Shown here: positions 9,290 through 12,131 of the stretch, in pieces
Numbering within the stretch: the first letter of the stretch is position 1
Layout of the letters: each line of letters begins with the position of its first letter
Translations under genes and position numbers: made by a program
From: Pararcticibacter amylolyticus
GTDB lineage: Bacteria; Bacteroidota; Bacteroidia; Sphingobacteriales; Sphingobacteriaceae
DNA: 32,823 nucleotides
Direction: 5' to 3'
NCBI RefSeq assembly: GCF_003130405.1
Contig: NZ_QEAS01000003.1
Location: 231,666-264,488, forward strand
The notes under the pieces: model-generated
Told to the model about the DNA's origin: nothing
Seen by the model: only the letters and a program-made list of their open reading frames with translations
Databases searched by the model: none

Positions 9290-9330
9290 TGTCAGCGTTT
9301 CAAGTGGTTCCCCCAGTTAGAACGCTGACA
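9290..9330. terminator. Hairpin between dinB-like and GNAT genes
   Basis: Ten-base inverted repeat TGTCAGCGTT / AACGCTGACA with a 21-base loop, placed between two convergent genes. There is no T-run, so it may be a weak terminator or a 3'-end stabilising structure. Confidence 0.45.
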
Positions 9331-9363
9331 TAAATATATTTCCATGCCCTTTCTTTCTTATAA

Positions 9364-9657
9364 CTAATCCGCAGCGACAATCAATCTGTTCCATTCGGGG
9401 TGCCTCTTCAGAAAAACTCTCACATAAGAGCAATAGGGCACCACTTTCAATCCCTGGCCTTCAATCTCCATGAACGTTTTTTCAACCATGGCAGAGGCTA
9501 CGCCTTTCCCTTCCAGTTCCTCCGGAACTTCCGTATGGGTCAGGAATATCTTATCTCCCTTCTTTTCATAATCAATAAAAGAAATCTGGTTGTCAACGAT
9601 GAATTCATAACGCTGTTCCTGTTCATTATTTGTAACAGAAAGATCTTTGTAGTTCAT
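9364..9657 (-). CDS. Short GNAT-family N-acetyltransferase (YidJ/NATD1-like)
   Basis: 97 residues from the ATG at 9657, matching the usual size of the minimal GNAT group (COG2388-like). The acetyl-CoA pyrophosphate loop is at 50-54 within EGKGVASAMVEK, and the family's PYCSYVRVFLKRHPEW is at 75-89, including C76, near the active site of related proteins. A longer reading starting at a TTG (9681) adds eight lysine/isoleucine-rich residues and is less likely. Acceptor unknown. It is transcribed away from the small-RNA repeats, whose first promoter lies only about 30 bases upstream of its start. Confidence 0.85.
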   Translation of the reverse strand: MNYKDLSVTNNEQEQRYEFIVDNQISFIDYEKKGDKIFLTHTEVPEELEGKGVASAMVEKTFMEIEGQGLKVVPYCSYVRVFLKRHPEWNRLIVAAD

Positions 9658-9723
9658 AAAAGTTATTTTTATTTTTTTCAATTCAGGTGCAACATTTCCC
9701 TGACAGTCAACGTATACACTAAT

Positions 9724-9789
9724 GTCCTCCCAAAGGACATGTTTTTCATAGGTAGATGTAGGGCCGGGTTTACCCGGCTCTTTTTTTTT
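9724..9789 (+). ncRNA. Putative small RNA, copy 1
   Basis: About 66 nt: 5' hairpin GTCCT-CCCAA-AGGAC (9724-9738), a conserved unpaired linker containing TTTTTCATAGGTAGATGTAG, then an intrinsic terminator (stem GGGCCGGG / CCCGGCTC, loop TTTA, 9761-9780) and nine T's. Promoter-like boxes: GCAACA at 9689-9694, an 18-base gap, TATACA at 9713-9718. The -10 box is the weakest of the three copies. Divergent from the GNAT gene. Family not recognised. Confidence 0.5.
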
Positions 9790-9844
9790 AAAAAGAATTT
9801 AAAATTTTCGTAACATCTCAATTACAATAGTCGTATAATCACAT

Positions 9845-9906
9845 GTCCTCCCAAAGGACGAGTTTTTCATAGGTAGATGTAGGGCCGGGTTTACCCGGCT
9901 CTTTTT
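9845..9906 (+). ncRNA. Putative small RNA, copy 2
   Basis: Same architecture as copy 1: 5' hairpin GTCCT-CCCAA-AGGAC, linker differing by only two bases at its start, and the same terminator hairpin followed by TTTTTCTTTT. This copy has the best promoter: GTAACA (9810-9815), 18 bases, a perfect TATAAT (9834-9839), placing the start site at about 9845, the first base of the 5' hairpin. Confidence 0.52.
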
Positions 9907-9965
9907 CTTTTAAAATAATATCAATTTTCCGTAACTTATTATTCTCACTGGTCGTATAATCATAC

Positions 9966-10028
9966 GTCCTCCCAAAGGACGATTTTTCATAGGTAGATGT
10001 AGGGCCGGGATTACCCGGCTCTTTTTTT
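9966..10028 (+). ncRNA. Putative small RNA, copy 3
   Basis: Same architecture; the linker is one base shorter and the terminator loop changes from TTTA to ATTA while the stem stays intact, a pattern that suggests selection on RNA structure. GTAACT at 9931-9936, 18 bases, then TATAAT at 9955-9960. The T-run (10022-10028) ends ten bases before the ligD stop codon, which comes from the other strand. Confidence 0.52.
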
Positions 10029-10037
10029 GTTTATTTC

Positions 10038-12131
10038 TTAACCGAACACTTCTTTCGCCCTTTTTACTGCCTTTTCCAGATCAATGCCAGTCTCCAGGAC
10101 GCCGGCAAACAAATCTCCTTCCGCTCTTACCCGCTCAATAGCATTAAAGATATGGAAATCCTTCATTTTCAATCCCGCTTTCACCTCGTCCCAGTGGAGC
10201 GGCATAGAAACCGTCGCGCCTGGCTTCGGCCGCAGCGAATAAGGACAGGCAATGGTAGCTCCGGGTCTGTTCTGCAAAAAGTCGAGGTACATTTTTCCCT
10301 TTCGGTTTTTAATCTGCCTTTCAATGCTGGTAAAAGCAGGGATTTGCGAATGCACGATATTGACGAGCAAGCGGGCAAACATTTGGGACTGATCATAAGT
10401 ATACTTCGCTCCCATCGGAATATAAATATGGATTCCGGTAGATCCTGAGGTTTTACAGAAACACGGCACGTCAATGGCATCCAGAACCTGTCTCACAACC
10501 TGTGCTGCTTCGACAACCTGCTCAAACGTATTCTTATCCGGATCAAGATCGATAATGCAATAATCCGGATGATCCGGTGATTGAGTCCTGGAAAACCAGG
10601 GGTTCATCTCAATGCACCCTAAAGAAGCCATCCATAGAAGACTTGCATCGTCCTTAGGAACCAGGAATTCTTTATGCTCCCCATCGCTCGTTACATAAGG
10701 AAAAGTTTCCGCCCACTCAGGAGCCTTGTCTTTTACATTCTTCTGATAAAAACCCGGCTTAGTGATCCCGTTGGGAAAGCGGTTGAGCGATTGAGGGCGG
10801 TCTTTCAGATAGGGCATGATAAACTCACCGATCTGGTAATAATAATTAAACATATCCCGCTTCGTAATCCCTTCTTCCGGCCAGTATACTTTACTTAAAT
10901 TACTGAATTTTAAGGAATGCCCGCATATCTTCCGCACCTGACTTTCATCCCTGGGGTTCAGCAACGTCTTTCTCGTGGTGTCCCGCGGAGCCGCCACGAG
11001 TTCCTGCCCCTCCATTCGGGTCTCTCCGTGCACAAGTCCGGCCGTATGCTCCGCCTGCTCTCTAACCACCTCTTTTGCATTTTTATCCGTACCCATACCT
11101 TCAAATGAAGGATGCCTGAAAACACCGTCTTCAGTAACCTCTGCAAAACTCACCTCGCATACCAGTTCAGGCTTTAGCCAGGTCGCATTCGCTTTAGGCG
11201 GATTCGGTCGAAATCTCGAAGGCTTATTGTAATCAGGGACAGTTTTAAAAGGGCTCTTACCTGAGATTAATGGACGAAACTGTTCCATCATCTCTTTCTG
11301 TAGTTTGGCTGAAAAACCCGTCCCCACCTTTCCCACATATTGAAAAGCCCCGTTCTCGTATACTCCCAGTAAAAGAGAACTGAATAACTTTGATGAACCT
11401 TCATTCCTCGTGAATCCTCCTATTACCACCTCCTGCCTTTTGTTAACCTTTATCTTAAGCCATTCTTTAGTCCGGAAATCCGTAATATAAGTGCTGGTAA
11501 CTTTCTTCGCCATGATCCCCTCAAGTCCCATCCGTTGCGCTGCACTGAAAAAATCCGTTCCATTTGCCTTAAAAACCTGGCTCAACCTGATCCGGTCGTC
11601 ATCTTTTGGAAACAGGTTCTTCAGCAGGATCTGCCGGTCGCTCAAAGGCAGGTCCATCAGGTTTTTGCCTTCATACCAGAGAATATCAAAAACATAATAA
11701 ACAAGCTCTCCGTCAGCTTCGCTCCTCCAATTCTGCAATGACGAAAAAACAGAAACACCCTGTTCATTCAGCACCATAATCTCCCCGTCGAACACCGCGT
11801 TCATTTTCCACTTCCTGATCGCGTGATAAAGAGGATAAAACCGCTCGTTAAATGACTTCTTATTCCTGGATATAATTTCACAGTCTCCATCTTTCAGCAG
11901 GGCTAAAGCCCGGTATCCATCCCATTTAACCTCATAAACCCATTCAGGATCGTCAAAAGGTTCATCGGTGAGCGTTGCCAGCATCGGCTTGATCTCTTCA
12001 GGAAACTCTGACTCCGGCGCCCTGGCCAGAATCGCATTCACATTCCCTTTAGTCACGAGCTCCGCATTTTCTGCGGCCTCTTTAATGGTGTTCAATGCTT
12101 CCTTCTGTTCCTGTTGTTTATTTTTCTTCAC
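10038..12131 (-). CDS. ligD: DNA ligase D, ligase-polymerase form
   Basis: 697 residues. Bacterial non-homologous end-joining enzyme that fills and seals double-strand breaks, normally with Ku. Order: short N-terminal helical region (1-45); ATP-dependent ligase adenylation domain with the nucleotidyl-accepting lysine K69 in EVKWDGYR, then EGIMAKK and KTKEWLKIK-like motifs; OB-fold domain to about 345; linker; archaeo-eukaryotic-primase-type polymerase domain (about 400-690) with LSKVYWPEEGITK, the catalytic DLD (D528, D530) and SGSTGIHIYIPM. The 3'-phosphoesterase (PE) domain found at the N terminus of many LigD proteins is absent. No ku gene lies in the window. Starts at the ATG at 12131; ends just past the third small-RNA terminator, which gives no T-run on this strand. 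Confidence 0.95.
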   Translation of the reverse strand: MKKNKQQEQKEALNTIKEAAENAELVTKGNVNAILARAPESEFPEEIKPMLATLTDEPFDDPEWVYEVKWDGYRALALLKDGDCEIISRNKKSFNERFYPLYHAIRKWKMNAVFDGEIMVLNEQGVSVFSSLQNWRSEADGELVYYVFDILWYEGKNLMDLPLSDRQILLKNLFPKDDDRIRLSQVFKANGTDFFSAAQRMGLEGIMAKKVTSTYITDFRTKEWLKIKVNKRQEVVIGGFTRNEGSSKLFSSLLLGVYENGAFQYVGKVGTGFSAKLQKEMMEQFRPLISGKSPFKTVPDYNKPSRFRPNPPKANATWLKPELVCEVSFAEVTEDGVFRHPSFEGMGTDKNAKEVVREQAEHTAGLVHGETRMEGQELVAAPRDTTRKTLLNPRDESQVRKICGHSLKFSNLSKVYWPEEGITKRDMFNYYYQIGEFIMPYLKDRPQSLNRFPNGITKPGFYQKNVKDKAPEWAETFPYVTSDGEHKEFLVPKDDASLLWMASLGCIEMNPWFSRTQSPDHPDYCIIDLDPDKNTFEQVVEAAQVVRQVLDAIDVPCFCKTSGSTGIHIYIPMGAKYTYDQSQMFARLLVNIVHSQIPAFTSIERQIKNRKGKMYLDFLQNRPGATIACPYSLRPKPGATVSMPLHWDEVKAGLKMKDFHIFNAIERVRAEGDLFAGVLETGIDLEKAVKRAKEVFG

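Follow-up and report, generated by a model that had tools for sequence, protein, structure and literature searches.

The three near-identical segments on the + strand of the window (the whole 32,823-nucleotide stretch analysed here) most probably belong, as tandem paralogues, to a family of base-pairing small RNAs (sRNAs), in which the core would act in trans as a seed, with the mRNAs of a group of small peptides as its best-supported partner. We place the probability of this reading at about 0.8. The functional heart of the RNA is its near-invariant single-stranded linker, rather than the hairpin or the terminator on either side. The sRNA family is real and apparently undescribed so far: searches of open-licence PubMed Central papers, in which the core letters were also tried as text, returned no description of it, and 185 of the 201 genomes sampled from an environmental bacterial family carry it. 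To our knowledge, sRNA control in the Bacteroidota is known mainly from Bacteroides. With peptide mRNAs carrying single or double sites as a specific candidate partner, the pairing of seed and partner, sponging and the sharing of one seed among several sigma factors are open to direct testing, and a so far unnamed family of small proteins comes to light as well.

Three tandem RNA units lie between a GNAT gene and ligD

The segments are located at 9722-9789, 9843-9909 and 9964-10029, where a preliminary description had placed them, between a GNAT gene (9364-9681, - strand) and a ligD gene (10038-12131, - strand). The exact 121-bp register reported there holds for the 5' hairpins (spacing 121/121) and fails for the 3' parts (121/120), because one linker base is missing in copy 3. 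The features of the locus are as follows.

9364..9681, - strand: short GNAT acetyltransferase gene (PF14542), flanking, a synteny marker outside the RNA
9688..9716, + strand: putative ECF-like promoter of copy 1 (TGCAAC-N17-CGTA), from a motif scan
9722..9740, + strand: 5' hairpin of copy 1 (ATGTCCT-CCCAA-AGGACAT), from the fold and family covariation
9742..9763, + strand: core of copy 1, TTTTTCATAGGTAGATGTAGGG, near-invariant and single-stranded, the proposed seed, from core conservation
9760..9789, + strand: intrinsic terminator of copy 1 with T-run, from the terminator scan and a covarying stem
9809..9837, + strand: putative ECF-like promoter of copy 2 (CGTAAC-N17-CGTA), from a motif scan
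9844..9860, + strand: 5' hairpin of copy 2, from the fold, the terminator scan and covariation
9863..9884, + strand: core of copy 2, from repeat comparison and core conservation
9881..9909, + strand: intrinsic terminator of copy 2, from the terminator scan
9930..9958, + strand: putative ECF-like promoter of copy 3 (CGTAAC-N17-CGTA), from a motif scan
9965..9981, + strand: 5' hairpin of copy 3, outer pair C-G, from the fold, the terminator scan and covariation
9983..10004, + strand: core of copy 3, from repeat comparison and core conservation
10001..10028, + strand: intrinsic terminator of copy 3, loop ATTA, from the terminator scan
10038..12131, - strand: LigD-type DNA ligase/primase-polymerase gene, flanking, a synteny marker outside the RNA

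The final G's of the copy 1 core belong also to the terminator stem. The predicted fold of each copy has a 5' hairpin, then an unpaired linker, then a 9-bp terminator stem, the arrangement originally proposed, with stability z scores of -3.1 to -3.2 (equally stable shuffles, 0/200). A terminator scan of 9300-10300 returned six terminator-like sites against a shuffle mean of 1.0, and these six correspond to the three terminators and the three 5' hairpins. The outer pair of the 5' hairpin is U-A in copy 1, U-G in copy 2 and C-G in copy 3, which is a hint of covariation. The sequence around the units has diverged, the upstream boxes excepted, again in agreement with the preliminary description. 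Its TATAAT-type box is present in two of the three copies, while copy 1 has TATACA, and the boxes appear better read as an ECF-like GYAAC-N17-CGTA element than as a sigma70 -35/-10 pair.

The RNA family is found in the Sphingobacteriaceae

Exact matches to the linker 17-mer CATAGGTAGATGTAGGG number seven in the 6.3-Mb host genome: the window trio and four dispersed copies on two other contigs. A covariance model recovered the same seven copies (E<=6.1e-12), followed by two weak matches (E 0.19 and 0.46). With this seven-copy model the RNA was detected in 31 of 60 relatives, all 31 of them among the 37 genomes of the same family, and in 0 of 23 genomes from other families. A second model, built from 71 matches, found it in 185 of the 201 family genomes; applied to 395 genomes of the phylum, with 12 candidates scored per genome so that weak relatives could be missed, it matched 11, all of the same family. 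Other families thus gave no match, either among the 23 non-family relatives or in the 395-genome phylum sample. The matches of the model built from this genome's copies, a search over the Bacteroidota that the preliminary description had suggested, show a unit with compensated stems.

Copy number ranges from 1 to 11 per genome in relatives carrying the RNA. Among the matches listed, core-bearing records come from Pedobacter, Mucilaginibacter, Sphingobacterium, Olivibacter, Parapedobacter, Arcticibacter, Desertivirga, Daejeonella and others, genera that we take to be Sphingobacteriaceae. As found here, the family seems limited by sequence search to that of the host, Sphingobacteriaceae by record names. 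The RNA was found in 0/3 genomes of genus g3, and the model found none in genome G017.

Covarying stems flank a near-invariant core

The unit of ~65-70 nt comprises a covarying 5' hairpin, the near-invariant single-stranded core UUUUUCAUAGGUAGAUGUAGGG and a covarying intrinsic terminator. In the dispersed copies of the host genome the linker is kept and both stems are altered in a compensated manner: the 5' stems among host copies read GUCCU/AGGAC, GCCCU/AGGGC and ACCCU/AGGGU, and the terminator stems also differ. Two-sided changes were present in 8/16 pairs in a MAFFT alignment of the seven paralogues. For the wider comparison, 79 matches were reduced to 76 copies by dropping one opposite-strand match and two duplicates, and five of the 76 fell below a stricter threshold, leaving 71. 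In these 71 matches two-sided changes were found in 15/16 pairs; this alignment was fitted to the model and therefore favours structure, although the seven-copy MAFFT alignment agrees with it. The covariation score was 0.635 against 0.247 in shuffles, a value that 0/500 shuffles reached, and it dropped to 0.14 once pairing partners were slid by one column. Copies and loci share descent, and the counts given here and below are not counts of independent events. Taken with the family-wide distribution, this covariation bears out the original interpretation of the trio as duplicated RNA genes.

Positions 1-16 of the core, UUUUUCAUAGGUAGAU, were unchanged in 67 of the 68 copies holding TTTTTCAT, and the other copy carries one change. 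This count leaves out the 8 of 76 rows without TTTTTCAT, and part of the invariance is due to the search, since the search patterns and models favour core-bearing copies. The letters of the 5' hairpin loop differ between genera, with CUUCUCAA in Mucilaginibacter copies. An anti-Shine-Dalgarno loop as the conserved part of the RNA is disfavoured, as the loop varies and the linker is the most conserved segment.

One core lies behind three promoter-like motifs

We scored three patterns, picked by eye on the same 76 copies, upstream of the RNA. The first, TAnnTTTG, has the form of a housekeeping promoter of the sigmaABfr type. TAnnTTTG was present in 30/76 copies against 1.7 in dinucleotide shuffles, the ECF-like pattern GNAAC-N15-18-[CA]GTA in 16/76 (shuffles, 0.013) and the sigma54-like pattern TGG[CT][AT][TC]-N5-TTG in 7/76 (shuffles, 0.05). 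One or another of the motifs precedes 53/76 copies, the trio included, and 23/76 fit none of the three. The earlier proposal of a promoter for every copy is therefore sustained for the trio at the level of motifs, with an ECF-like element in place of a sigma70-like one. By these motifs the sRNA gene is predicted to be free-standing, with its own promoter and intrinsic terminator.

A further 106 copies were then scored (120 minus 12 in the first set and 2 identical; the ubiX synteny count uses 108), with position ranges widened by <=3 bases. Of these, 80 carry the housekeeping pattern (shuffles, 3.3) and 20 the sigma54-like one (shuffles, 0.125, maximum 3). The ECF-like pattern was found in 0/106, and this class is therefore seen only in the window's genus, g7 and g12; it appears lineage-limited, and the further copies did not confirm it. 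Sigma54-dependent promoters have the form GG-N10-GC, with the start ~12 nt downstream. The sigma54-like sites of the sRNA are TGGYAY-like, followed by N5 and TTG, and lie ~12-18 nt before the hairpin. They lack the usual C at -12, and the sigma54-like assignment is tentative; rpoN is encoded in the host genome.

The gene ubiX is within 800 bases in 71/82 housekeeping copies, and within 700 bases in 21/30, so the housekeeping copy is probably the ancestral one. In the sister genome G002 this GNAT-ligD interval contains just one copy, also ECF-like, and the trio therefore looks like a tandem expansion. Clusters of sigma54-like copies occur elsewhere, with four neighbouring copies in Mucilaginibacter endophyticus (L168 1205-2240) and three in M. 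pedocola (L157 3540-4280); they are probably a separate tandem expansion.

In 1.63 Mb of host sequence the ECF motif gave 11 matches, three of which are the trio promoters, against 5 for the reversed motif. This difference is too weak to claim an ECF regulon. One of the 11, TGTAAC-N16-CGTATA, is found 83 bases upstream of a gene for a GldJ-like lipoprotein (L326 1072-2784; C1:61072-62784). One dispersed host copy of the sRNA (L090 9512-9580, - strand) is divergent from an RRM_1 gene (9974-10393, + strand). Binding by the RRM protein RbpB is a characteristic of FopS, a Bacteroides sRNA; the host genome encodes five RRM_1 proteins, and an RRM gene was beside the sRNA at just 1 of 189 sRNA loci.

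The core is complementary to sites in small-peptide mRNAs

Outside the sRNA copies, ACCTATGAAAAA occurs exactly at three sites in the host genome. For ACCTATGAAAAA with <=1 mismatch, sRNA copies included, the count was 83, hardly above the 71 of the reversed control. At one of the three exact sites the 17 nt CATCTACCTATGAAAAA, complementary to the core, follows the stop codon of a gene for a 50-aa peptide and precedes a terminator. The duplex of CATCTACCTATGAAAAA with the core has a predicted energy of -24.0 kcal/mol, and 0/500 shuffled cores were as good. Peptide homologues, collected by protein similarity, have comparable sites in several genomes, and in some the site is present twice.

We examined 70 peptide loci. 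Of these, 40 were picked by E-value and frame length among the matches listed, with their 3' regions unseen; the other 30 include the host (G000) locus, found via its site, and five more whose 3' regions had been seen beforehand. The core complement CTACCTA is present <=120 nt after the stop in 29/70 loci, against a mean of 1.1 over 210 permutations of the word. The near-equal permutations ATCTACC (29) and CATCTAC (28) are pieces of the same site, and the next, CACCTAT, gave 7. Complementary runs of >=12 nt (G-U allowed) were found in 29/70 loci against 1.7 on average and at most 13 among 300 shuffled seeds; 41/70 loci have no such run. A conserved unpaired seed would accordingly have a recurrent complementary partner, and with the seed complement recurring in 29/70 peptide 3' regions, a non-coding part of the transcript, these mRNAs are also candidate sponges.

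Sites were present in 5/7 peptide loci of g1, 4/5 of g16, 18/39 of g15, 1/2 of g25 and 1/2 of g13, and in none of those from g7 (5), g21 (3), g3 (2), g12 (2), g2, g19 and g10 (1 each). Genus g7 (Desertivirga) argues against pairing, as it has many sRNA copies yet 0/5 peptide loci with a site. Genus g3 has neither sites nor sRNA, which fits pairing. In G017, peptide 3'UTR and start-like sites are present though the model found no sRNA there. This genome also has CTACCTATGAAAAAC across the start of a lipoprotein-like frame (L279 ~1490-1560), a candidate start-codon target.

In ten of the 70 peptide loci, from g15 (Mucilaginibacter), the site lies over the peptide start codon. In L303, the one of these checked by Pfam, the peptide operon is beside lpxB. 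Double anti-seed sites after the peptide stop, 22-28 bases apart, occur at L298, L299, L300 and L302 (genus g16). The GG-N10-GC form stands before 7/70 peptide loci, a count made without a shuffle control. The peptides gave no match above curated cut-off in Pfam or NCBIfam. They are unnamed proteins of ~45-60 aa (SKLVARFDNELKALLMEDLKA...), in tandem in some genomes (L259, L302-L308, L312, L314, L315, L322 and others).

We propose that the RNA pairs in trans with the peptide mRNAs through its open core, as a seed, complementarity being what is observed. Pairing over a peptide start codon would prevent translation of the peptide. Next to the terminator, the 3'UTR sites may titrate the sRNA as a sponge, may change the fate of the mRNA, or may be further target sites. 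Diversification of the promoters into housekeeping, sigma54-like and ECF-like classes could let several signals deliver one seed, and the ECF-like copy of the window would have been amplified by tandem duplication from a single copy such as that of G002. The more elaborate scheme, in which the seed is wired to three sigma-factor classes, a co-evolving peptide operon balances it as target and sponge at once, and a phage seed possibly enters the circuit, we hold tentatively and at rather less than an even chance.

Peptide mRNAs compared with other roles for the conserved unit

Of the genomes without a peptide match, 20 are listed (80 more are not), and 17 of these 20 have the sRNA. Peptide mRNAs therefore cannot be its only partner, and others are needed if it is a regulator there. 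This fits a view of the RNA as mainly a general start-codon repressor of mRNAs starting AUGAAAAA, similar to FopS of Bacteroides, with the peptide mRNAs as one target among many. The core does start with UUUUUCAU, the complement of AUGAAAAA; start-codon sites occur at the 10/70 peptide loci described above and at isolated fitting starts, such as that of a lipoprotein-like gene in C78; and FopS is reported to pair near susC start codons (PMC11697453). However, a test of 1.63 Mb of the 6.31-Mb genome, covering 1249 ORFs of which 1190 had a usable ATG, showed no enrichment of start-codon duplexes: 15 genes reached <=-18 kcal/mol, against a mean of 21 for 40 control seeds in which the GTTTTTCAT block was retained. 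Exact CTACCTATGAAAAA is also rare outside sRNA copies in 37 genomes. We consider general start-codon repression possible, with odds clearly against it. For ACCTATGAAAAA with <=1 mismatch, sRNA copies included, the count was 83, hardly above the 71 of the reversed control.

A second possibility is that the peptide mRNA itself is the regulator, titrating the sRNA or altering its own stability via the 3'UTR, and that the sRNA is not its translational repressor. The commonest sites do fall between stop codon and terminator, and some loci have two. The ten loci with a site over the start codon speak against this, as do the 17 genomes that keep the sRNA without a peptide match, and we regard it as unlikely.

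Seed pairing with the peptide mRNAs as the best-supported partner is preferred to both, and far more so to two readings in which the unit is not an RNA gene. A scattered mobile repeat of the MITE or REP kind, resembling terminator and promoter by chance, would explain a dispersed element of up to 11 copies, but it is very improbable: covarying stems flank a conserved unpaired core, conservation ends at the unit boundaries, no inverted repeats flank the trio units, and one class of copies is mostly beside ubiX. A scattered repeat with no conserved stems, which the preliminary description had named as the finding that would count against RNA genes, is thus not what the search returned. Least credible is a leaderless micropeptide (ATG TCC TCC CAA AGG ... 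TCA TAG). A nine-codon frame does run from ATG to the core TAG in copies 1 and 2, and in one dispersed copy from GTG, but copy 3 carries ACG plus a frameshift, 3/4 dispersed copies have no in-frame start, and the stem letters change pairwise. An in-frame ATG before the core TAG was present in just 18/68 and 15/105 copies, and in 2/7 host copies, a count that leaves out the 11/184 copies without TTTTTCATAG. With 33/173 copies having such an ATG, conservation as a protein-coding frame only, the other adverse outcome foreseen, was not observed either.

Comparison with known RNAs

At gathering and at relaxed thresholds no Rfam family scored above cut-off for the RNA, and in 20 further loci the gathering score was reached by tRNAs only. 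The impression in the preliminary description that the units belong to no known family is upheld by the Rfam search of the window, where no family reached its gathering score. The best sub-threshold Rfam match of a five-locus search was mmgR/suhB (RF00519; 30.3 and 23.7 bits, cut-off 41), which is alike in its hairpin-linker-terminator layout and differs in linker sequence.

FopS (RF04319) from Bacteroides is nearest in seed and lineage. Both RNAs are multicopy Bacteroidota paralogues with a single-stranded seed block, UGUUUUUCAU, common to the two and upstream of an intrinsic terminator, and housekeeping-type promoters are common to FopS/GibS (RF04182) and the present RNA. In FopS the conserved single-stranded seed, R1/R1', lies at the 5' end, and the published structure (PMC11697453) shows no hairpin before it; in the present RNA a covarying hairpin precedes the seed. 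Relative to FopS, ~15 nt of linker are absent and the remaining seed differs. The FopS model scored 20.9 bits, below its gathering score of 56, and RF04319 had no match in the host genome at E<=0.001. The whole alignment with FopS beat 4965 of 5000 dinucleotide shuffles (35 as good), whereas 983/5000 shuffles that kept the block were as good. Likeness beyond the shared block is therefore non-significant, and the result is compatible with homology as well as with convergence on AUGAAAAACA. Placing the RNA in FopS is not supported, given the bit score, the hairpin difference and the non-significant likeness outside the block.

The following systems were likened to the present RNA by description only. 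CcsR/cuckoo RNAs of Rhodobacter and csRNAs of Streptococcus are anti-Shine-Dalgarno-loop sRNAs under alternative-sigma or two-component control. They have in common with the present RNA tandem or multiple paralogues and a C/U-rich loop (CUCCCAA), but in the present RNA it is the linker, not the loop, that is most conserved. In the Qrr RNAs of Vibrio and the LhrC RNAs of Listeria several near-identical sRNAs feed one regulon, with Qrr under sigma54, whereas here one seed lies behind three promoter-motif classes. In known 3'UTR-embedded RNA sponges the mRNA 3' end beside the terminator holds a long seed complement. The candidate sponges found here differ from those in belonging to unnamed peptide genes, in having double sites in some loci and in the extra start-codon sites. 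In its working the RNA would resemble a multicopy base-pairing sRNA, with an apparently unusual spread over promoter classes. Qrr and LhrC are both named in PMC11697453.

One IMG/VR contig, IMGVR_UViG_3300003321_000307 (L211 ~1890-1950), has TTTTTCATAGGTAGATGTAG, and a terminator-like hairpin with a T-run comes after it. This seed lies directly 3' of a major capsid-like gene (PF05065) and is without the 5' hairpin; the contig is the sole viral one showing the seed pattern. A phage contig carrying the seed is reported for FopS as well (PMC11697453).
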